This document shows, piece by piece, positions 18,569 to 28,737 of a stretch of DNA of 64,000 bases (its first letter is position 1; each line of letters begins with the position of its first letter). Below the pieces are notes generated by a model. The model was given only the letters and a program-made list of their open reading frames with translations. It had not been told where the DNA came from and made no database searches. The translations under genes were made by a program, and so were the position numbers. This DNA is from Sinimarinibacterium arenosum (GTDB lineage: Bacteria; Pseudomonadota; Gammaproteobacteria; Nevskiales; Nevskiaceae): NCBI RefSeq assembly GCF_005047655.1, contig NZ_SUKF01000002.1, positions 1 to 64,000 on the forward strand, given 5' to 3'.

Positions 18569-19024
18569 GTGAACAATAGACATCTACCGATTTTCGTCGT
18601 CGGCGACCGCATCGTTGCCGCGAATGCGACGCTGGAAAACGAGCGTCAAACACCACCCGAAATCAGCTTGTCCGGGTTGCAGTCGCTGATCCACGACATG
18701 GACGGCGGCGCGCTGATCGTCGATGCCAGCGGCCAGATCACCTGTGCCAATCCCGCCGCGCGCACGATGTTCGGCATCCCGCGCCTTGAAGGCCGCATGG
18801 TCGAAGAACTGATGCCGACGGCCTTGCGCGACGCCCACCGCGTCTATCGCTCGGTGTATGCATCGATGCCGAACAAACGCCCCATGAGCCGCTATTCGCA
18901 TCTGTGGGCTCAGCATGCCGACGGCACCGAGTTCTGCGTGCAGATCGAACTGACCCCGTTTTCCACCGCAGCCGGCACCTGGATCGCCGCGCTGATCCGC
19001 CACGCACCGCCGGAAGCCGACTGA
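18569..19024 (+). CDS. PAS-domain protein
   Basis: The 151-residue protein has one PAS domain (about residues 36-147) with ALIVDASGQITCANPAARTM and the C-terminal FCVQIELTPFSTAAGTWIAA strands. No kinase, GGDEF, EAL or helix-turn-helix part follows, so it is a stand-alone sensor module or adaptor. The GTG start is uncertain because no ribosome binding site is seen; the first in-frame ATG would begin inside the PAS domain. TTGACT at 18512-18517 could be a -35. The FNR-type box 100 bases upstream hints at oxygen control. The ligand is unknown. Confidence 0.7.
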   Translation: MNNRHLPIFVVGDRIVAANATLENERQTPPEISLSGLQSLIHDMDGGALIVDASGQITCANPAARTMFGIPRLEGRMVEELMPTALRDAHRVYRSVYASMPNKRPMSRYSHLWAQHADGTEFCVQIELTPFSTAAGTWIAALIRHAPPEAD

Positions 19025-19076: not shown

Positions 19077-20171
19077 TCAGGCCGCCGCGTTGCCGGCCGC
19101 CAGCGGAAAGCTGACGGACTTCACCAAGGCGTGCACCGACAGGCCCGAACGCAGTTGCAGACGCTCTGCCGACAGGCGGGTGACGCGGGCGAGCAGACTC
19201 AGACCGTTGCAGTCCAGGGCCACCATCGCCGTGCTGTCGTCGGCGCGACCGATCGAGGTGATCGTGCCGGTGAGCACGTTCAGCGCGCTGATCTCCTGCG
19301 GTGCCTGCAATGCCAGCGTGACGTCCTGGGCACGCACCCAGACATTGACCTGGGAACCAACGGCGTGGTCCAGCTGCGGCACCCACAGGTCCCCGGCAGC
19401 ACAGTGCAGCCGGGTCAGCCGGTAGTGCGCATCGTGGCCCAGCACCTCTGCCGCGACCACGGCGCCGGCGTCGGGCCGGCGCGCGAACATCGGCAGGTCG
19501 GTGCGCGTCAGCACCGCGGCGGTCGGACCGGTCGCCAGCAGGCGGCCATTGCCGATGCAGACCAGATGCCCGGCAAGGCGTACGACCTCATCCAGTGCAT
19601 GGCTGACGTAGACGATCGGAATCTTCAGTTCGTCACGCAGGCGTTCAACGTACGGCAGGATCTCAGCCTTGCGCGCCGCATCGATCTGGCTCAGCGGTTC
19701 GTCCATCAACAGCAGCTGCGGCGCGCACAACAATGCGCGCCCGATCGCGACGCGCTGGCGTTCGCCACCAGACAGGCTGCCCGGATGCCGCGTCAGCAGC
19801 GGCTCGATGTCCAGCATCTCCACAAGCCGTGCATCGTCAGCCGCCGCGCGCCGGTCCGCTGCAAACCAGCGACCATAGCCAAGGTTCTGGCGCACTGTCA
19901 GATGGGGGAATAGCCGCGGTTCCTGGAACACGTAGCCGATGCGGCGCCGATGGGTCGGCACGAAGACCCCCACCGCGGTGTCGACCAGGACCGTCCCGCC
20001 GACCGTGATGCGCGCCTGCTGCGGTCGCAGCAGGCCGGCAATCGCCCGCACCAGCGTGGTCTTGCCCGAGCCGGACTGGCCGAACAGCGCGGTCAGACCC
20101 TGTGGACTGTCGAACGCGACCTGCAGTTCAAAGTCGCCCTGACGGTGCCGGATGTCGACGTGCAGGCTCAT
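19077..20171 (-). CDS. modC: Molybdate ABC transporter, ATP-binding protein
   Basis: The 364-residue ATPase has Walker A GQSGSGKTTLVRAIAG, signature LSGGERQRVAIGRALL, Walker B LLLMDEPLSQID and the H-loop region VSHALDEV. The last 75 residues form a TOBE/Mop domain (INVLTGTITSIG-like start) that binds molybdate and is diagnostic for ModC. It powers molybdate uptake through ModB. Start overlaps the modB stop (ATGA). It ends the modABC operon; no clear intrinsic terminator follows. Confidence 0.96.
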   Translation of the reverse strand: MSLHVDIRHRQGDFELQVAFDSPQGLTALFGQSGSGKTTLVRAIAGLLRPQQARITVGGTVLVDTAVGVFVPTHRRRIGYVFQEPRLFPHLTVRQNLGYGRWFAADRRAAADDARLVEMLDIEPLLTRHPGSLSGGERQRVAIGRALLCAPQLLLMDEPLSQIDAARKAEILPYVERLRDELKIPIVYVSHALDEVVRLAGHLVCIGNGRLLATGPTAAVLTRTDLPMFARRPDAGAVVAAEVLGHDAHYRLTRLHCAAGDLWVPQLDHAVGSQVNVWVRAQDVTLALQAPQEISALNVLTGTITSIGRADDSTAMVALDCNGLSLLARVTRLSAERLQLRSGLSVHALVKSVSFPLAAGNAAA

Positions 20172-20857
20172 GCGCCGGAGGCCCGCTTGCGCCCGCGCCG
20201 CGCCAGCCACTCGGACGCCATCAGGGCGAGCATCGATACCGCAACGGCCACCGCGGTCAGTCGCAGCGCCTGCGCATCGGCGCCGGGCATCTGCGTATAG
20301 GTGTAGATCGCGCTCGCCAGCGTCTGCGTCTCGCCGGGAATATTGGACACGAAGGTGATGGTGGCGCCGAACTCGCCCATCGCGCGCGCGAACGCCAGGA
20401 TCATGCCGGAAACAATGCCCGGCCCGATCAGCGGCAAGGTCACGGTGGCGAACACCCACAGCGGGCGCGCGCCCAGCGTCGATGCCGCCTCCTCCAGGCG
20501 CGGATCAACCGCTTCCAGCGACAGCCGGATCGCGCGCACCATCAACGGAAAGCCCATCACCGCGGCCGCCAGCGCGGCGCCGGTCCAGCGAAACGCGAAG
20601 ACGATGCCCAGATGCTCGGCCAGGAAGCGGCCGGCGAAGCCCTGCGTGCCGAAGCTGAGCAACAGCAGATAGCCCGTCACCACCGGGGGCAAGGTCAACG
20701 GCAGATGGATCAGGCCGTCGATGACGACGATGCCGGGGAAGCGCCAGCGCGCCAGCAGATAGGCCGCCAGCACCGCGAACGGCAGGCTGGCCAGCACCGC
20801 GACAGCGGCCACGCGCAGGGACAGCGACAGCGCCGTCCATTCGTCCGGACTCAGCAA
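20168..20857 (-). CDS. modB: Molybdate ABC transporter, permease
   Basis: The 229-residue protein has about six membrane segments and the permease EAA loop (EEAASTLGARPLWVFATVTL). Residues LHLPLTLPPVVTGYLLLL and RAMGEFGATITFVSNIPGET are strongly conserved in ModB. The start was placed at TTG (then LSPDEWTALSLSLRV), which gives the usual ModB opening and length, just after the modA stop; a longer ATG frame would overlap modA and encode an Arg-rich stretch with no family support. It is coupled to modC by a four-base overlap. Confidence 0.93.
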   Translation of the reverse strand: MLSPDEWTALSLSLRVAAVAVLASLPFAVLAAYLLARWRFPGIVVIDGLIHLPLTLPPVVTGYLLLLSFGTQGFAGRFLAEHLGIVFAFRWTGAALAAAVMGFPLMVRAIRLSLEAVDPRLEEAASTLGARPLWVFATVTLPLIGPGIVSGMILAFARAMGEFGATITFVSNIPGETQTLASAIYTYTQMPGADAQALRLTAVAVAVSMLALMASEWLARRGRKRASGA

Positions 20858-20861
20858 GGTG

Positions 20862-21743
20862 TCAGGGCTCCGACAGCGCCGGCCGCGGCGCCTCCGTCGC
20901 GACGAAGCCCCAGCGCATGAAGATCTTCTGCGCTGCATCTGCCTCGAGGAACCGCAGCAGCGCGGCGGCCTGTGCGTTGTCCGATTTCGCGATCACGGCG
21001 GCAGGGTAAACGATCGGTTCATGACTGTCCTGCGGAAAGACGTCCAGCACCCGCACCTGCGGATCAGCCACCGCATCGGAAGCGTAGACGATGCCCAGCG
21101 GCATCTCGCCACGGGATACCAGCCTCAGCGCGGCGCGGACGTTTTCCGCCAGAACAGTGTGCGTCTGCACCGCATCCCAGACCGCCAGCGACTGCAGGGC
21201 CTGACGACCGTAGCTGCCCGCCGGCACCGCCGGATTGCACAGCACCAGACGTCCGCCGCCCAGTGCGCCCCTCAGATCGAAGCCCGGCGCAATACGCAGC
21301 TGCAGCGCGGAGACTGACGGGGCCACCAGTACCAGCTGGTTGCGCAGCAGATCGCGCCGGCTGTCCGGGCCGATCAGCCCGCGCTCGCCCACGTAGTCCA
21401 TCCATTGCTGGTTGGCAGAAAAGAAGACATCCGCCGGCGCCCCCTGCTCGATCTGGCGTGCCAGCGTGCTGCTCGCGGCATAGGTATTCAGCGTCTGAAT
21501 GCCGCTGTCGGCAGTCCACGCCGCAGTCGCCTCATCCAGCGCATCCTTCAGGCTCGCCGCGGCAAATACCCGCACCGGCGCAGGTTCCGCCGCAGCGAGC
21601 CCGCTGTACGACAGTACCGGCATCAGACCCAGCATCAGCGCGACGATCCGCAGCTGCTTGCACAGAACACCCTGCAGGCGCAGCCGCCCGCCTGGAGGCG
21701 AACAGACGCTTCGGGTTCGCATTGGATTGAACATTGCGTGCAT
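20862..21743 (-). CDS. modA: Molybdate ABC transporter, periplasmic binding protein
   Basis: The 293-residue precursor has an unusually long N-terminus before the hydrophobic signal core (LRIVALMLGLMPVLSYSGLA), with cleavage likely after AAA near residue 54. The mature part shows ModA features: VRVFAAASLKDALDEA, ADVFFSANQQWMDYV, and NPAVPAGSYGRQAL. It captures molybdate or tungstate in the periplasm. The start chosen has GAGG about seven bases upstream; an internal ATG 21 bases later gives a shorter signal peptide. A ModE-like operator lies 35-58 bases upstream, so the operon should be repressed when molybdate is plentiful. Confidence 0.93.
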   Translation of the reverse strand: MHAMFNPMRTRSVCSPPGGRLRLQGVLCKQLRIVALMLGLMPVLSYSGLAAAEPAPVRVFAAASLKDALDEATAAWTADSGIQTLNTYAASSTLARQIEQGAPADVFFSANQQWMDYVGERGLIGPDSRRDLLRNQLVLVAPSVSALQLRIAPGFDLRGALGGGRLVLCNPAVPAGSYGRQALQSLAVWDAVQTHTVLAENVRAALRLVSRGEMPLGIVYASDAVADPQVRVLDVFPQDSHEPIVYPAAVIAKSDNAQAAALLRFLEADAAQKIFMRWGFVATEAPRPALSEP

Positions 21744-21777
21744 CGGATCGCCTCTACTGCGTGGCCAACGTATCCAC

Positions 21778-21801
21778 CGATAGTATGTCAACTACATAAC
21801 G
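21778..21801 (-). promoter_or_regulatory. ModE-like operator upstream of modA
   Basis: One half reads CTACATAACG and the other CGATAGTATG, with GTC between. Compared with the E. coli modA operator as I remember it (CGTTATAT half, GTC, then CTACATAACG half), 18 of 24 positions agree, including a run of ten. It sits 35-58 bases upstream of the modA start codon, the position expected for repression. The comparison is from memory and was not computed against a matrix. Confidence 0.65.
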
Positions 21802-22098
21802 AGATTGCAGAACCGGATTTAGCAAGGACGATGCCACTGCCCGGCACGGCACTCCGGGCTGCGACAGCAGCATGGCGCCACCGGAGACGCCATAGCACGG
21901 CGCGTCAACGGCGGTGGATTTGTCGGTTTTGCGACACGGGATGTCGTCTTTTCACCAAGCTTGGACGTTGAACTCCACGGCATCTTCCCGGCGTATCGTC
22001 AGGATCGAATTTCAACAGCGGCGGGAACTTAGCGCCGACCCGAACCCGTCCCCGCATAAGGCAACGGCGATTCGGACCCGCTTGGCATCATGGTTGCT

Positions 22099-22131
22099 TT
22101 GACGTTTATTTATATAGTCGACTATATGATT
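22099..22131 (+). promoter_or_regulatory. Promoter overlapped by a ModE-like operator, TonB-receptor operon
   Basis: A -35-like TTGACG at 22099-22104 and a -10-like TATATG at 22123-22128 flank an 18-base spacer. The 16-bp perfect palindrome ATATAGTCGACTATAT (22112-22127) fills most of it. A 24-base window at 22108-22131 matches the remembered E. coli modA operator at 16 of 24 positions, with TTATAT, GTCG and CTA shared. Binding of ModE here would block RNA polymerase. The start codon used for the receptor lies 45 bases downstream. Confidence 0.6.
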
Positions 22132-22175
22132 AAATCGCAATGACCTCCCGCCGCCGCTCTACACAGGATCCCGCC

Positions 22176-24233
22176 ATGCGCGCCGTACCGCCCTTCTCCC
22201 TGCATCGAACCATCACCCTGATCCTGGCGACGTTCGCGATCGGCACCCATGCCGCCGATGACCTGGCGATGGACCCACCCGAACTCCTGGCCAGTGCCGA
22301 AATTCCTGCGGCATTCACACTCGGCAGCATCGAAGTCGAGGCGAGTCGCCCGGAGCTCGACACCGACAGCCAGGTCGAACTCGGCATCGACCAGATCCGT
22401 GCCGAAGACCGCCAGACCGTCGGCGCCGCCATCAGTCTGGCGCCCGGCGTTTACATGGGCCGCGTCGGCGCGCGTAACGAGGAGGTCGCCCACATTCGCG
22501 GCTTCGACCTGCGCCAGGTGCCGCTGTTCATCGACGGCATTCCGGTCTACGTGCCTTATGACGGCTATGTCGACCTTGGCCGCTTCACCACCTCTGACCT
22601 TGCCCGCATCGACATCGCCCGCGGCTTCGGCTCGCTGATCTACGGCGCCAATACGCTGGGCGGCGCGATCAATCTGGTCAGTCGTCGGCCGACCGAAGCC
22701 TTCGAGCTGGACGCCGGTGCGCAGCAGGATTTCAGCGACGACGGCGATGCAATCCGCAGCAATGTCTACGCGAATCTCGGCAGTCGTCAGGGTGCGTGGT
22801 ACGGCCAGCTCGGCGTCGCTTATCGCGATCGGGATCACGATGAGCTGCCGGACGACTACACGCCGACGATGGTTGAGGACGGCGGCGAACGCGACAACAG
22901 TGATTCGAATGACCGCCGGCTATCGATGAAGCTCGGCTGGACGCCGCGCGATGGTGGCGAGTACGTGATCGGCTACAACCGCCAGGACGGCGAGAAGGGC
23001 ACACCGCCTTACGCCGGCACGGTCGACGGCGTGCGTGCGCGCTACTGGCGATGGCCGGCGTGGGACAAGCAGAGCGCCTACCTGATGACGCGTACGGCGC
23101 TCGGCGCGCATGAGCTGAAGCTGCGCCTTTACCACGACACCTTCAAGAACTCGCTGTTCTCGTACGACGACGCCACCTACACCACAATCACCAAGCCCTA
23201 CGCATTCCGCAGCCGGTACGACGACTACACCAACGGCGCCGCCGTCGAGGGCGGCATCCAGGCGGCCGACAGCAATCGCCTGCGCCTGGCCGCAACCTGG
23301 AAGGACGACATCCATCGCGAACACAACGAAGGTGAGCCGGTGCGCCACTTCAAGGACCGCAGCTGGACCATCGCCGCGGAGGACACGCAGGCGCTGGCAC
23401 CGCGCTGGTCGCTGGTCACCGGCCTGGCGCACGAGGCGCGGCAGAGCCTGCAGGCGCAGGACTACAACAGCGGGACCGACACCGTCAGCGACTTCGCCCG
23501 CGACGACAACACCGCGCTCAGCGGCCAGATCGGCGTGTTCTTTGCGGCCTCCAGCGCCACACAGCTGCGTGCGACCTATGCGCATCGCAACCGCTTCCCG
23601 ACGATCAAGGATCGCTATTCCTACCGTCTCGGCACCGCGATCCCGAACGAGTCGCTCAGCACCGAGACCGCCGATCACTTCGAACTCGGATACGTAGCCC
23701 AGCTGCTCAATGCGCTGCACGCGGACATCGCGCTCTACACCAGCGGCATCAGCGATCTGATCCAGCAGGTCAGCATCGACGACAGCGCCTGCAACAGCCC
23801 GCCGTGCTCGCAGCAACAGAACGTCGGCAAGGTGCGCGCACAGGGCGTCGACATGGCACTGCACGGCGGCTGGCACAGCCTGCGCTATGTACTGAACTAC
23901 AGCTATCTGGATCGCAGCAACCGTTCCGATCCCGGCGTCGAGCTGACCGACGCACCACATCATCAGGGCTTCGCTTCGCTAAGCTGGGATGCCACCCCGC
24001 TGTGGTCGCTCAGCGCCAATGCGGACGCCCTGTCCGGACGCTATTCCAGCAGCGATGGCCGCCAGCGCGCCGCCGGCTTCGCCGTGTTCGGGCTGTCGAC
24101 GCGCTATCACCTGACCCCGGAAATCGCGCTGGGCCTGGGCGTGCACAATCTCGCCGATCGCCTGTACGAATACAGCGAGGGCTATCCCGAACCCGGCCGC
24201 AGCTACTTCGTCCGCGTCGAGGCTGCGCTGTGA
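22176..24233 (+). CDS. TonB-dependent outer-membrane receptor, ModE-linked
   Basis: The 685-residue precursor has a signal peptide (HRTITLILATFAIGTHA), a plug domain (about residues 55-165, with RGFDLRQVPLFIDGIPVYVP and SLIYGANTLGGAINLVSRRP) and a 22-strand barrel ending in a C-terminal aromatic-rich strand (GRSYFVRVEAAL). Such receptors import bound metals, siderophores or cofactors using TonB energy. The start chosen has AGGA eight bases upstream and gives a clean signal peptide; an ATG 36 bases earlier directly abuts the operator. It is the first gene of an operon ending in modE, so a molybdenum- or tungsten-related ligand is inferred. A siderophore or iron complex remains possible. Confidence 0.9.
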   Translation: MRAVPPFSLHRTITLILATFAIGTHAADDLAMDPPELLASAEIPAAFTLGSIEVEASRPELDTDSQVELGIDQIRAEDRQTVGAAISLAPGVYMGRVGARNEEVAHIRGFDLRQVPLFIDGIPVYVPYDGYVDLGRFTTSDLARIDIARGFGSLIYGANTLGGAINLVSRRPTEAFELDAGAQQDFSDDGDAIRSNVYANLGSRQGAWYGQLGVAYRDRDHDELPDDYTPTMVEDGGERDNSDSNDRRLSMKLGWTPRDGGEYVIGYNRQDGEKGTPPYAGTVDGVRARYWRWPAWDKQSAYLMTRTALGAHELKLRLYHDTFKNSLFSYDDATYTTITKPYAFRSRYDDYTNGAAVEGGIQAADSNRLRLAATWKDDIHREHNEGEPVRHFKDRSWTIAAEDTQALAPRWSLVTGLAHEARQSLQAQDYNSGTDTVSDFARDDNTALSGQIGVFFAASSATQLRATYAHRNRFPTIKDRYSYRLGTAIPNESLSTETADHFELGYVAQLLNALHADIALYTSGISDLIQQVSIDDSACNSPPCSQQQNVGKVRAQGVDMALHGGWHSLRYVLNYSYLDRSNRSDPGVELTDAPHHQGFASLSWDATPLWSLSANADALSGRYSSSDGRQRAAGFAVFGLSTRYHLTPEIALGLGVHNLADRLYEYSEGYPEPGRSYFVRVEAAL

Positions 24234-25555
24234 GCGGGGTCCGGCCGATCTCGCCGCGCCGACGCCGTCTGCTCGCCGGACTCGGCGGCGCACTGACCTT
24301 GGCGCCGCTGGCCCGCTGCCTCGCGTCAAACGATGCACACGCCCAGACACCGGTCGTCGTCGTCACCGCCTACCCGGACGAAGTGATGTCGCGCATCGAG
24401 GCGGCATTTCACACCACGTACCCGCAGTACCGGCTGCAGTTCGTCTGGCGCATGCCCAACGACGCGCTGCCGTATCTGCTGCAGGATCACCAGGCCGGCG
24501 CCGATGTCTACTGGTCCGCCTCGCCACGCACCTACGCCGCACTGAAGCAGGCCGGCGCGCTGCGACAGCTGCCGCAAACGCTGCGCACGCTGCCGGGACG
24601 CATCGGCGGCGCACAGATCGCGGACGTCGAGGGCCACTTCGTGGCGACAGAAGTCGCCGGCTACGGCTTCGCCTACGACCTCGCACAACTCGACGCGCTG
24701 CACCTGCCGGTGCCGGCGGACTGGGACGCCCTGCGCGATCCGCGCTACGCCGGCCGCGTGGCGTTGCCGATTCCGGCCACGGTCGGCTTTGCCCCGGTGA
24801 TGGTCGACATCGTGCTGCAGGCCTACGGCTGGGATGCCGGCTGGGCGCTGTGGAGCGAGATTGCCGGCAACGCCCAGCTGGTGGACCGCGGCGCAAGCTT
24901 TGTCACCGACAAAGTCGGTCGCGGCGACTGCGCGGTCGGCCTCAGCATCGACTTCTTCGTCGCCTCCGCGATCGCCAACGGCCAGCCGCTGCGCTTCGCC
25001 TACCCGCGCCACAATGGCATCAACCCCGGACAGGTCGCGATCACCACGGACGCCCCCAACCCCGAGGGCGCCGAAGCGTTCACCGCGTTCGTGCTGTCGG
25101 AAGCAGGCCAGCGTGTGCTGCTGCATCCGGACATTCGCAAGCTGCCAGCGCGCCCGGGCGTCTATGCCGACGCGCCGGCCGGCTATTACAACCCCTACGC
25201 GGCCGCCAGGGCCGGCGGTCTCGACTACAACGCTGCGCGCGGACAGCCGCGTCTGGCCCTGAGCGCGGCGCTGTTCCAGCAGATGTGGGTGGAACCGCAC
25301 AAGGAACAGCGTGCCTTATGGCAGCGCGTGCATGCGGCCGAAGCTGCAGGGATTGCGGTCGGCGATGCGCGCGCGGCCCTGAGTGCCGTCCCCTTGTCCG
25401 AAACCCAGGCCGATGCGCTGGCCCCGATGTTCAAGCGACGCCTGGAGGGCAGCGTGGACACAGAACGCTCGACGCTGGAGCGGCGCTGGGCGCGCTTCGC
25501 GGCGCAACAACGCTCGATCGCCGCACGCATCCTCGACACACAAGGTGCCGCATGA
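24230..25555 (+). CDS. Tat-exported periplasmic solute-binding protein (Fe3+-type fold), no permease
   Basis: The 441-residue protein starts at a GTG overlapping the receptor stop (GTGA). Its N-terminus SPRRRRLLAGLGGALTLAPL is a twin-arginine-type signal, with cleavage probable after DAHA. The binding domain resembles ferric-type extracellular binding proteins: VVVVTAYPDEVMSRIEAAFH, LPIPATVGFAPVMV, and FAYPRHNGINPGQVAITTDA. About 100 residues after the usual end form a helical, Arg/Ala/Glu-rich extension with no known match. No ABC permease or ATPase accompanies it, so it may deliver to another transporter or act as a ligand chaperone. It is not ModA-like, so a molybdate ligand is not proven. 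Confidence 0.82.
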   Translation: MSGVRPISPRRRRLLAGLGGALTLAPLARCLASNDAHAQTPVVVVTAYPDEVMSRIEAAFHTTYPQYRLQFVWRMPNDALPYLLQDHQAGADVYWSASPRTYAALKQAGALRQLPQTLRTLPGRIGGAQIADVEGHFVATEVAGYGFAYDLAQLDALHLPVPADWDALRDPRYAGRVALPIPATVGFAPVMVDIVLQAYGWDAGWALWSEIAGNAQLVDRGASFVTDKVGRGDCAVGLSIDFFVASAIANGQPLRFAYPRHNGINPGQVAITTDAPNPEGAEAFTAFVLSEAGQRVLLHPDIRKLPARPGVYADAPAGYYNPYAAARAGGLDYNAARGQPRLALSAALFQQMWVEPHKEQRALWQRVHAAEAAGIAVGDARAALSAVPLSETQADALAPMFKRRLEGSVDTERSTLERRWARFAAQQRSIAARILDTQGAA

Positions 25556-26922
25556 AGACATTGCCTCTGCACATCGCCACCGCGGTGATTGCCGGCCTGA
25601 TCGCGCTGACGGCGCCGGCGCACGCGCACGCGACAGTATCCGTGCAAACCGACGCCCCGACGATCGAACGTTCGGGACGCGATGCCTTCAGTCAGCCGTG
25701 GCCGGATCTGGACACCGACACGCTGCAGACCTTCCTGCGCGGACGCACGCTGTTCCATCAGAGCTGGATCATTGCGCCGGCGCAGGATCAGGCCCACGAC
25801 GGCCTCGGCCCGCTGTACAACCGCCTGGCCTGCATCTCCTGCCATCCGAAGAACGGCCGCGGGCGCGCACCCGATACGCCGCTGGAACGCATGCAGTCGA
25901 TGCTGGTGCGGCTGTCGGTACCCGGACCTGCCGGGCGCGCGCCGCAACCGCATCCGCGTTACGGCGACCAGCTCAACGAAGACGGCGTTCCCGGTGTCGC
26001 CGGCGAAGGTCTGGCCGGCATTGTCTGGCAGTACTCGCACATCCCCCTCGCCGACGGCAGCGTGGTCGAGCTGCGCGCGCCGCAGCTGCAGTTCCGCGAC
26101 CTGGCCTACGGCCCGCTGGACGACGCGCTGACTTCGCCGCGCGTCGGCCCACCGGTATTCGGTCTGGGGCTGATCGACGCTGTCGCCGACGACAGCTTGC
26201 AGGCGCTGGCGGACGAGGCCAAGCCGGACGGCGTGCGCGGACGCGTCAATGTCCTCATAGGGGACGACGGCAGCCGCAGCTTCGGGCGCTTCGGCCTGAA
26301 GGCCAACACGCCCAGCCTGCGCGCACAGATCACCGGCGCGATGATCGGCGATCTGGGCATCACCTCCTCCCTGCATCCGCAAGAGAACTGCACTGCACAA
26401 CAGGCGGCCTGCCGGCAGGCCGGCAGCGGCGGCAGCCCCGAGCTGACCGACGCACAGCTGGACCAGCTGGAAACCTATCTGGCGCTGGTTGCGGTACCGG
26501 CGCGACGCCATGTGGACGATCCCGGCGTGCGCCAGGGCGAGCAGCAGTTCGCCGCCATCGGCTGTGCGCTGTGCCACCGTCCGCAGCTGCAGACCGCGGC
26601 ACAGACGCGCTATCCGCAACTGGCAAACCGCCGCTTCGCGCCGTACTCCGATCTGCTGCTGCACGACATGGGAGACGGCCTGGCCGACGGCCGACCGGAT
26701 TACAGCGCCGGCGGTCGCGACTGGCGCACGCCGCCGCTGTGGGGCCTCGGCCGCTTCGCCGAGATCAACGAGCACACGCAGCTGCTGCACGACGGCCGCG
26801 CGCGCAGTTTCGAGGAGGCGATTCTGTGGCATGGCGGCGAGGCACAGACTGCGCGCGATCGCTACGCCGCACTGCCGCAGCCGCAACGACAAACCCTGCT
26901 GGAGTTTCTCGCGTCGCTGTAA
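25552..26922 (+). CDS. Di-haem oxidoreductase-family cytochrome c (DUF1111)
   Basis: The 456-residue exported protein (signal peptide with AHAHA cleavage region) carries two CxxCH haem c motifs, CISCH at residues 94-98 and CALCH at 338-342. The C-terminal TPPLWGLGRFAEINEHTQLL and LHDGRARSFEEAILWHGGEA are hallmarks of the DUF1111 / di-haem oxidoreductase family, distantly related to MauG and cytochrome c peroxidase. Members often accompany TonB receptors and metal-uptake genes; the reaction is unknown. An electron-transfer step on the incoming ligand, for example metal reduction, is a guess. It overlaps the binding-protein gene by four bases (ATGA), so the two are co-translated. Confidence 0.88.
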   Translation: MKTLPLHIATAVIAGLIALTAPAHAHATVSVQTDAPTIERSGRDAFSQPWPDLDTDTLQTFLRGRTLFHQSWIIAPAQDQAHDGLGPLYNRLACISCHPKNGRGRAPDTPLERMQSMLVRLSVPGPAGRAPQPHPRYGDQLNEDGVPGVAGEGLAGIVWQYSHIPLADGSVVELRAPQLQFRDLAYGPLDDALTSPRVGPPVFGLGLIDAVADDSLQALADEAKPDGVRGRVNVLIGDDGSRSFGRFGLKANTPSLRAQITGAMIGDLGITSSLHPQENCTAQQAACRQAGSGGSPELTDAQLDQLETYLALVAVPARRHVDDPGVRQGEQQFAAIGCALCHRPQLQTAAQTRYPQLANRRFAPYSDLLLHDMGDGLADGRPDYSAGGRDWRTPPLWGLGRFAEINEHTQLLHDGRARSFEEAILWHGGEAQTARDRYAALPQPQRQTLLEFLASL

Positions 26923-26939
26923 TTCGGCAACAATGCCGG

Positions 26940-27818
26940 ATGCCTCGCAAACCGACGTCAAAACCGGCAGCCAAAGCCGTCACCAAGACCCCTGCCCGGA
27001 CGGCGTCGGCGGGGCCGTCAACCTATCGCGGCAGCTTGATGGTCGAGAAGAACGGCGCGCCCTTCCTGGTCGCCGGCCGCATCGACCTGCTCGAGGCGGT
27101 CGATCATCACGGGTCGATCAGTCAGGCGGCCAAGGCCGTCGGCATGAGTTACAAGGGCGCCTGGGATGCCATCGACACGATGAACAACCAGGCCGACGAA
27201 GCCCTGGTTGCGCGTACCCCCGGCGGGCGCCGCGGCGGCGGCACGCATCTGACCGCCTACGGCAAGCGCGTGGTGGCGCTGGTGCGCGCCATCGAACAGG
27301 AATACCAGCAGGCCCTGAGCCTGCTCAATGAGCGCGTCGAGAAGCATGGCCGCGACTTCGCCGAATACCAGCGCCTGCTGCAGCGCTTCTCGCTGCAGAC
27401 CAGCGCGCGCAACCACTGGGTCGGCACCATCACTGCGATCCGCGCCGACCGCGTGCGCACCGAAGTCGAGATCGCGCTCGACGCCAGGCTCAGCATCGTC
27501 GCCCACGTCACCACCGACAGCGCACGCCGGCTTGGCATCCAGCCGGGCGTCGACATCGCCGCGCTGGTCAAGGCCGTAGCGGTGCAGATCGATACCGACA
27601 CCGCGCGCAACACGCCGCCGAACCGGCTGGTCGGCACAATCGCGCGTTGCAGTCAGGAAGGCGGCCGCAGCGAAGTCAGCATCGACCTGCCGGGAGGGCG
27701 CACGATCACCGCGGTGGTCAGCGACGCCGCCGGCGTCAGCCTGCGCGCCGGACGCAAGGTCGTCGCCAGCTTTGAACCCCGCAGCGTGCTGCTGGCCAGG
27801 CTGCCGGGCGTCAGCTGA
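26940..27818 (+). CDS. modE: Molybdate-responsive transcriptional regulator ModE
   Basis: The 292-residue regulator has a LysR-like winged helix-turn-helix (HGSISQAAKAVGMSYKGAWD, about residues 57-76) and two Mop/TOBE molybdate-binding domains starting QTSARNHWVGTITAI (about 149) and PNRLVGTIARCSQ (about 223). The TSARNxxxGTI sequence is characteristic of ModE. With bound molybdate ModE represses modABC and can activate molybdoenzyme genes. It has an N-terminal Lys/Pro/Ala-rich extension of about 28 residues absent from E. coli ModE. It is the last gene of the TonB-receptor operon, 17 bases after the cytochrome gene, so it probably controls its own synthesis. Confidence 0.93.
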   Translation: MPRKPTSKPAAKAVTKTPARTASAGPSTYRGSLMVEKNGAPFLVAGRIDLLEAVDHHGSISQAAKAVGMSYKGAWDAIDTMNNQADEALVARTPGGRRGGGTHLTAYGKRVVALVRAIEQEYQQALSLLNERVEKHGRDFAEYQRLLQRFSLQTSARNHWVGTITAIRADRVRTEVEIALDARLSIVAHVTTDSARRLGIQPGVDIAALVKAVAVQIDTDTARNTPPNRLVGTIARCSQEGGRSEVSIDLPGGRTITAVVSDAAGVSLRAGRKVVASFEPRSVLLARLPGVS

Positions 27819-27831
27819 GCACGCTGCACGC

Positions 27832-28737
27832 ATGAAGTTCCGCCGACTGCCGCCACTGCACACTCTGGAAGCGTTCGAGGCCGCAGCGCGCACCGGCGCG
27901 TTCAAGGACGCCGCACAGCAGTTGCACCTGACACCGTCGGCGATCAGTCATCAGATCAAGGCGCTGGAAGCCCACCTCGAATTCGAGCTGTTCCGCCGCG
28001 GCAACCGCTCGTTGGAACTCACCGATGGAGGCAAGGCGTATCTCGGCGTCGTGCGCGACACCCTGTCCCGGCTGCGCAGCGGCAGCGCCAGGGTCGCGCA
28101 GCAGTACGCCCGCGCTTCGCTGAAGATCAGTGCCGGTCCGTTCATCGCCAGCGAAATCATCGTGCCGGCGCTGCCCTCGTTTCAGGAGGCGCACCCGGAC
28201 ATCGACGTACGCATCGACACCGATCTGCGTACGGTCGATCTGCTGCATGAGGACACCGACCTTGCGCTGCGCTTCGGCAACGGCCACTGGAAACATCTGG
28301 CCGCGGACCGGCTGATGCGGGTTTCGGCGGTCCCGGTCTGCACGCCGGCCATCGCCCGGAAGATTCGCCGTGGCGGCCCAAGCCAGCTACAGGACGTTGC
28401 GCTGATTCACTCGTCACCGATGCCCGAGGGCTGGAAGATGTGGGCCGATGCCACCGCCACGGTGCTGGGCACGCCCAAACGCGACATCTGGCTGGACAGC
28501 TACCTGGCGATCCTGCGCGCCGCCGAGCAGGGTCTGGGGCTCGCGCTGGGGCTTGTTCCGATGGTCAATCCCTGGCTCAAACGGCGCAAGCTGGTGGCCC
28601 CCTGGCCGGACATGCTGGTGAGCGTGCCGCAGGCCTACTATCTGTTGTATCGCCCGGACGATCTCGAACGTCCGGAGGTCGTCGCATTCCGGCGCTGGCT
28701 GAAATCCGTCCTCAAGCGCGACGCCCTGCTCACCTGA
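27832..28737 (+). CDS. LysR-family transcriptional regulator (GcvA-like)
   Basis: The 301-residue protein has the GcvA/AmpR-type opening RRLPPLHTLEAFEAAARTGA and helix-turn-helix LHLTPSAISHQIKALEAHLE, then a periplasmic-binding-protein-like effector domain (from about residue 90). It starts 13 bases after modE ends, but the weak ribosome binding site and change of theme leave co-transcription uncertain. Targets may be the downstream hydrolase-thioesterase genes. GcvA-like regulators control metabolic operons or beta-lactamase genes; the effector here cannot be told from sequence. Confidence 0.88.
   Translation: MKFRRLPPLHTLEAFEAAARTGAFKDAAQQLHLTPSAISHQIKALEAHLEFELFRRGNRSLELTDGGKAYLGVVRDTLSRLRSGSARVAQQYARASLKISAGPFIASEIIVPALPSFQEAHPDIDVRIDTDLRTVDLLHEDTDLALRFGNGHWKHLAADRLMRVSAVPVCTPAIARKIRRGGPSQLQDVALIHSSPMPEGWKMWADATATVLGTPKRDIWLDSYLAILRAAEQGLGLALGLVPMVNPWLKRRKLVAPWPDMLVSVPQAYYLLYRPDDLERPEVVAFRRWLKSVLKRDALLT

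Follow-up and report, generated by a model that had tools for sequence, protein, structure and literature searches.

Molybdate is thought to leak through porins, and because this leakage is assumed, the crossing of the outer membrane by scarce molybdenum gets little attention; dedicated outer-membrane routes are known for iron, B12, copper and lanthanides. Chelated molybdenum can also be a nutrient source, as with the Azotobacter molybdophores azotochelin and protochelin. Here we analyze a 64,000-nucleotide stretch of the Sinimarinibacterium arenosum genome (assembly GCF_005047655.1, contig NZ_SUKF01000002.1; hereafter the window) in which the genes for a TonB-dependent receptor, a periplasmic binding protein, a di-haem oxidoreductase of the DHOR (DUF1111) family and the regulator ModE stand divergent from modABC, the genes of a molybdate ATP-binding cassette (ABC) transporter. 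In Azotobacter chroococcum, the genome paper places the TonB receptor Achr_39300 near modG, modE and modA1B1C1 and terms it "potentially for molybdate" (PMC4465626). Pseudomonas aeruginosa is reported to use secreted ModA with the outer-membrane IcmP for molybdate (PMC8602904, PMC11734730), and ModE1 and ModE2 of Azotobacter vinelandii are described as repressing regulators of alternative nitrogenases (PMC9542535). A literature search that covered few subscription papers returned no experimentally studied TonB receptor for molybdenum, and we do not claim its absence from print. Gene content, a conserved layout, ModE genes and boxes that exceed chance across the receptor's clade, the separation of this clade from the receptors used for comparison, and the fold classes of the products together make it likely, as far as sequence can indicate, that the operon is a ModE-controlled receptor system for acquiring molybdenum or tungsten.

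The operon on the + strand runs in the order receptor, binding protein, DHOR and ModE, and diverges from modABC on the − strand (Table 1). An initial annotation of the window had described this arrangement, and it is confirmed, with every gene found in its place. The overlap of all four genes that was also described holds for the receptor/binding protein and binding protein/DHOR junctions, which overlap by 4 bases each, and not for DHOR and ModE, which lie 17 bases apart. No permease gene of its own adjoins the binding protein gene. The Mop/TOBE molybdate-binding domains of ModE score over their cut-offs (TIGR00638 in two stretches; PF03459 at 85.7 against 22.3, also in two stretches), and its helix-turn-helix (HTH) model, TIGR00637, reaches 94.6 bits, just below a cut-off of 98.5 that was passed in only 12 of 39 genomes.

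The intergenic region contains a ModE-like palindrome on the receptor side, the core of which agrees with TATATA-N6-TATATA at 11 of 12 positions. This is the top score in the window, and when the intergenic region was shuffled 1000 times it was equalled once. No other place in the 4.54-Mb genome comes within one mismatch of the pattern; two mismatches are seen at 7 further places, against 6 for a reversed control pattern, which is background. As a strict 25-base ModE pattern had no match in the window, agreement with the 20-position E. coli consensus, taken from PMC545781, was counted in its place, with the modA site of E. coli K-12 as a positive control (16/20). The modA-side site of the window has a right half, CTACATAACG, identical to that of the K-12 site, and its 20-position score, like that of the receptor-side site, is by itself within chance. 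ModE-like operators had been proposed in front of both units; the receptor-side one is upheld by its core, while the modA-side one is weaker and does not alone exceed chance. We consider it highly likely that ModE with bound molybdate would repress both modABC and the receptor operon.

The receptor has the plug (PF07715, 57.7 against 23.9) and barrel (PF00593, 122.3 against 27) of a TonB-dependent transporter, both over the Pfam cut-offs. Of the 26 NCBIfam receptor models that it matched, 25 were listed, and it stays short of the threshold of each (best 111.7 against 223.5); they covered siderophore, heme, B12, copper and pyrroloquinoline quinone (PQQ) receptors, and none claims it as a member. 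With a profile built from 13 receptors and run on 39 genomes, members of its clade score 520–900 bits, followed among the TonB receptors listed by scores of 329, 213 and 204 and then by values of at most 122. Up to 29 candidates were scored per genome and the listing went no further than E 1e-20, which makes the 33 other receptors a part of the total. This boundary is also seen in a tree of 104 receptors, where 95 clade rows split from E. coli FepA, CirA, BtuB, FhuA, FecA and PqqU (the receptors for enterobactin, other catecholates, cobalamin, ferrichrome, ferric citrate and PQQ) and three other receptors with a Shimodaira–Hasegawa-like approximate likelihood ratio test (SH-aLRT) value of 100, in a quick method with SH-aLRT as the only support and with long outgroup branches. 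Three loci (L040, L042 and L046) were excluded from the tree because the in-frame reading from the match start is shorter than 550 residues. From these sequence comparisons, we can conclude that the receptor belongs to a sharply bounded, widespread clade apart from the known receptors used. It clusters with none of the six siderophore and cofactor receptors compared, a check that the initial annotation had set and that its reading survives. The clade rows come from Pseudomonadota, Thermodesulfobacteriota, Verrucomicrobiota, Kiritimatiellota, Bacteroidota and Ignavibacteriota, and in a phylum-wide draw the clade occurs in at least 7 of 200 genomes (own genome counted), a lower bound since at most five candidates were scored per genome. 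The counts below refer to the best 80 of at least 548 loci, ranked by similarity to the window and including many from Pseudomonas and Flavobacterium.

The clade is tied to ModE first by gene linkage. In 39 genomes, retained from 40 loci selected after gene-neighbour matches were already known, 20 of 41 clade receptors have an apparently genuine ModE gene (TIGR00637 at 65 bits or more) within 5 kb, where 0.14 are expected, and 22 have one within 10 kb, where 0.26 are expected; only 1 of the 33 other TonB receptors in the same genomes has one within either distance. Co-occurrence above chance, on which the initial annotation depended, is therefore borne out. The full 80 loci were counted afterwards with a purpose-built hidden Markov model at a 60-bit threshold, and 31 of them have a ModE HTH gene no more than 1 kb from the receptor, while 41 have one within 5 kb; the nearest such gene is shorter than 200 amino acids, and so HTH-only by length, in 29 of these 41 and longer in 12. 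The rows from Bacteroidota and Ignavibacteriota follow the same trend (18/27 with a ModE HTH gene). In many of the Bacteroidota rows (L058-L103), a short ModE gene stands immediately upstream of the receptor. A dyad upstream in Flavobacterium resembles a variant box, CAGTATTC...ATACTG, and the Bacteroidota variant-box pattern occurs in 5/27 rows against 40/1350 shuffles, which is suggestive only.

The second tie is the presence of ModE boxes. In the 300 bases ahead of the receptor, a box of at least 15/20 is found at 32 of 79 loci and one of at least 17/20 at 14 (L081 was left out for its short upstream sequence). Dinucleotide shuffles reach these scores in 1/3160 and 0/3160 cases, and other open reading frames of at least 250 amino acids in the same loci in 13/945 and 4/945, a control that takes in all such frames, including spurious ones and neighbours that possibly share a box. 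Boxes precede the receptor or its gene row in distant members as well, with scores out of 20 of 17 in E. coli, P. aeruginosa, Methylorubrum and Shinella and 18 in Proteus. Counting any molybdenum link by our criteria, 63 of the 80 loci have one. In Methylorubrum extorquens CM4, two further ModE-like boxes (L015:13048 and L015:14218; 16/20 and 15/20) flank a DUF2478 gene about 4 kb from the receptor.

A scan of both strands for ModE and Fur boxes bears on an alternative that the initial annotation had itself raised, namely that the operon takes up an iron siderophore, so that the cargo is iron, and owes its control by ModE only to the competition of molybdate and iron for catechol siderophores. 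ModE boxes of at least 15 precede 32/79 receptors against 6/1580 shuffles, whereas Fur boxes are unenriched (at least 13 in 6/79 against 120/1580 shuffles; at least 14 in 0/79 against 26/1580), which counts against this alternative. The binding protein does share the fold of ferric-binding proteins, among others, the receptor does have weak matches to siderophore receptor models, and DHOR genes adjoin imelysin genes in other replicons; however, the receptor clade lies apart from FepA, CirA, FhuA and FecA, and the aligned ligand stretch of the binding protein lacks a Tyr-Tyr pair. On balance we regard an iron cargo as improbable.

Table 1 Coordinates of the two divergent gene units and their ModE-like sites in the window.
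Feature	Position	Strand	Remarks
modC	19077-20171	-	molybdate ABC transporter ATPase with TOBE domain; TIGR02142 442.8 bits against cut-off 285.05
modB	20168-20860	-	molybdate ABC permease; TIGR02141 206.4 against 182.6; PRK09421 355.9 against 262
modA	20862 to ~21743	-	molybdate-binding protein; TIGR01256 177.1 against 62.5 on 20862-21740; start codon 21743 by sequence reading
Weak ModE-like site, modA side	21776-21803	.	13/20 consensus positions
ModE-like palindrome before receptor operon	22106-22133, core 22111-22128	.	core 11/12
TonB-dependent receptor, ModE-linked clade	22140-24233	+	start 22140 or in-frame ATG 22176; PF07715 and PF00593
Periplasmic binding protein (SBP_bac_6, AfuA/FbpA fold)	24230-25555	+	PF13343 71.3 bits; Tat-like signal, helical C-terminal extension
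DHOR (DUF1111) di-haem oxidoreductase, CcP/MauG-like fold	25552-26922	+	PF06537 286.2 bits against 22
ModE, molybdate-responsive regulator	26940-27818	+	HTH and two Mop/TOBE domains; TIGR00638 89.1 against 55

Both operons are flanked by the gene of a small PAS-domain protein (18569-19024) and that of a LysR-type regulator (27844-28737). The same-genus relative (G010; L011/L025) keeps the divergent order, with 57-72% protein identity over the four operon genes, and has an additional gene between the mod genes and the receptor, which encodes a phosphate-selective porin O/P (PF07396, 209 bits, L011:11887-13266) and has a 14/20 box at its start (L011:13228). The porin gene is thus the first of the receptor operon and has a ModE-like box in front of it, so that joint control of an oxyanion porin and a TonB receptor is possible there. 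Similar porin genes occur in only one other locus, L048. The closest receptor among the matches listed, at 81% identity, is that of a metagenome-assembled genome of Nevskiales (L024), which has modABC and ModE alongside.

Across the 80 loci, the receptor is followed by genes for a binding protein and DHOR in 28, has a MolBC pair of the FecCD type nearby in 12, and has both in 2, while at least two of modABC are near it in 18 (the presence of mod, Mol and S-adenosylmethionine (SAM) methyltransferase genes being scored as BLAST matches to single queries). When mapped on the receptor tree, where the binding protein–DHOR label was assigned by DHOR match alone, this label and the MolABC label require four changes each, fewer than any of 500 shuffles, and the MolABC rows are nested among the binding protein–DHOR rows. 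On this distribution, one receptor clade is served by two different inner modules. Azospirillum has a row of binding protein, DHOR, receptor and TonB genes with no ModE adjoining; the binding-protein gene of the cassette in Azospirillum sp. TSH58 (L009:6923-8175) is broken into two reading frames. In E. coli, a row between treA and ymgE (L016:2366-8842 / L022:2951-9427) carries a 17/20 ModE box and encodes a MolA-like binding protein, a FecCD permease, an ATPase, a SAM methyltransferase, ModD (504 bits) and the clade receptor. Of 5426 complete E. coli genomes, 2102 have a match to this row, with at least 80% covered in 2094. The binding protein of the row has a match to HI_1472 of Haemophilus influenzae at 1.2e-7. 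In P. aeruginosa CP109682 (L012:6790-9354), the clade receptor sits behind a 17/20 box, overlaps the gene of a small molybdopterin-dependent oxidoreductase and is near moaA and narIJHG. Additionally, all six further genomes of the phylum-wide draw have binding protein–DHOR genes, MolABC-like genes or ModE by the receptor, with boxes of at least 15 in three: box scores are 18 with MolABC, methyltransferase and ModD, 16 with ModE, MolABC and methyltransferase, 15 with ModE, and 14 with MolABC. The two with no box above 12 have a binding protein–DHOR–receptor–TonB row and MolABC, respectively.

The model of the binding protein (predicted local distance difference test (pLDDT) 91.5) matches the folds of AfuA, FbpA and the metal-citrate protein MctA. 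By alignment to AfuA, in which a Ser-Ser-Gly-Thr loop, presumably phosphate-binding, and a His-Asp pair are taken to be ligand-site residues, the loop positions (184-187) are occupied by T-V-G-F in the window and by R-V-G-F in most of 22 sequences, and the stretch aligned to His-Asp is D-F-F in 22/22 (F242-F243). An AfuA-type sugar-phosphate binding protein was rejected because the Ser-Ser-Gly-Thr loop is absent at the aligned positions. An FbpA-type ferric-iron binding protein was rejected because the stretch, aligned through AfuA and not to FbpA directly, has no adjacent Tyr-Tyr, which we take to be the iron ligands of such proteins. With both sets of residues missing at the aligned positions, there is no indication of a sugar-phosphate as the ligand, or of bare ferric iron. 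Invariant in the 22 sequences are W73, D92, W95, E141, D241, F242, F243 and Y258. Tat export had been proposed for this protein; by inspection, its N-terminal PRRRRLLAG is Tat-like, and the motif is clearer in homologues L027 (NRRNFLKG) and L099 (SRRAFVKG), while the Pseudomonas homologues look Sec-type.

In a second alternative, ModE reads demand, and what is imported is neither molybdate nor tungstate in any form and is instead another nutrient needed when molybdenum runs short, for example a vanadium chelate or a cofactor (or cofactor precursor) of the molybdopterin type. In its favor are the NadC-like ModD and the methyltransferase that accompany some family members, which would suit an organic ligand, and the invariant aromatics W73, W95, F242 and F243 of the binding protein. 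Against it stand the modABC genes near the receptor in 18/80 loci (at least two of the three), the MolBC-like genes in 12/80, and the relationship of the E. coli row's binding protein to HI_1472, which we take to be MolA, a molybdate binder. We judge a cargo of this kind unlikely, and the molybdenum or tungsten reading is retained.

Two CxxCH motifs are present in DHOR (residues 94-98 and 338-342), and both are invariant in 19 sequences. Its model (pLDDT 74.5) matches di-haem CcP and MauG at Z of about 11 (best 11.5), and the next fold scores 3.9; at E 0.001, Foldseek by itself returned nothing for DHOR, and a second comparison of the Foldseek candidates did match CcP and MauG. Profile score, motifs and modeled fold agree in placing it in the CcP/MauG-type di-haem family. 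On a P. aeruginosa RW109 plasmid (L018:5890-8374), DHOR adjoins imelysin. Given that IcmP, presumably an imelysin-family protein, is reported as the ModA partner for molybdate, a wider link between DHOR and molybdenum may exist.

The own genome has six molybdopterin oxidoreductase matches, which imply a need for molybdenum, and one FecCD permease. A second, short ModE-type HTH gene lies on contig C23 (L122:8809-9294) by molybdopterin oxidoreductase, nitrite reductase-like, MobA-like and MoaA-like genes. Two types of chelator pathway were searched for in this genome: IucA/IucC, the non-ribosomal peptide synthetase (NRPS)-independent siderophore (NIS) synthetase, had no match, and no NRPS condensation domain was found over the cut-off, with two matches below it. 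A self-made chelator of the NIS or NRPS type is therefore unlikely as judged from gene content.

We propose that, when molybdate is scarce and repression is lifted, the receptor would import a molybdenum species with TonB energy. There is an even chance that this species is a Mo(VI) chelate made by other microbes; free molybdate or tungstate is possible, with less in its favor. The chelate is preferred because free molybdate presumably passes porins, and a foreign origin because no NIS synthetase and no NRPS condensation domain over the cut-off were found in the own genome. The binding protein, which lacks the AfuA ligand-site residues at the aligned positions, might or might not, with equal plausibility, be what holds the ligand in the periplasm. 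MauG oxidizes protein side chains to a quinone, and for this reason we suggest, as a doubtful step, that the MauG/CcP-like DHOR could oxidize the chelator, so that molybdate is freed for ModABC. In other lineages, the FecCD/MolABC-type ABC transporter beside a receptor of the same clade would move the ligand into the cytoplasm instead. The combined scheme is tentative: receptor, binding protein and MauG-like oxidase would import molybdenum on scavenged chelators and free the metal by oxidation of the chelator and not by reduction of the metal, and same-clade receptors elsewhere, including those of many E. coli, would be paired with MolABC-like importers and cytoplasmic chelate-processing enzymes.

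Several observations weigh against a molybdenum acquisition system. Control by ModE is no proof of a molybdenum-containing cargo, and the 80 loci are not phylogenetically independent. On the full 20-position consensus, the receptor-side site of the window scores 13, a value reached by 27/500 shuffles, so the flanks outside its core are degenerate, and no sigma-70 promoter-like site was found in the intergenic region. In the same-genus relative (L025), no site in the 300 bases before the receptor scores above 10/20, and the 14/20 site precedes the porin instead. Boxes are weak, at only 13/20, in Azospirillum, Paracoccus, Sphingomonas and Novosphingobium, and none of the four best-scoring sites in Bartonella is upstream. 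Seventeen of the 80 loci, including that of A. vinelandii (L033), are without a molybdenum link by our criteria; among the 28 binding protein–DHOR loci this is true of 8, and only 7 have ModE within 5 kb. A close homologue of the binding protein occurs in only one of 60 relatives of the own genome, the same-genus one. Furthermore, the L024 locus has no match to the binding protein or DHOR, and this suggests that both are dispensable and that a minimal version exists. Taking these points together with the clade-wide evidence, the interpretation of the initial annotation is partly supported.

If a molybdenum cargo is correct, the ModE-tied receptor clade would give molybdenum a dedicated outer-membrane route like that of iron, and the use of molybdenum chelates would become testable via a single-gene deletion. 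The DHOR/DUF1111 family would gain a functional context beyond imelysin clusters, and attention is drawn to an E. coli cluster that bears a ModE box and has no system name in the annotation of the records examined. With the molybdophores of Azotobacter, the window operon would share its proposed cargo, a molybdenum chelate, although its genome has no NIS synthetase match or condensation domain over the cut-off. The ModA–IcmP pair of P. aeruginosa is likewise a reported outer-membrane route for molybdate; it differs in using a type VI secreted ModA and an insulin-cleaving metalloproteinase, with no TonB receptor. Achr_39300 is similar in that a TonB receptor lies by an ABC transporter and mod genes, but it is an annotation remark in a genome paper, the available part of which mentions no binding protein or DHOR beside it, and the comparison is by description only. 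MolABC of H. influenzae is a FecCD-type ABC transporter whose HI_1472 (3psa, 3psh) is matched by the binding protein of the E. coli row; it is absent from the window operon, where DHOR and a binding protein of the FbpA/AfuA type are found instead. Compared with ModABC–ModE of E. coli, where the 7-kb K-12 mod region viewed has no TonB receptor, the window has the same type of regulator, the same type of box and the same type of inner-membrane transporter.

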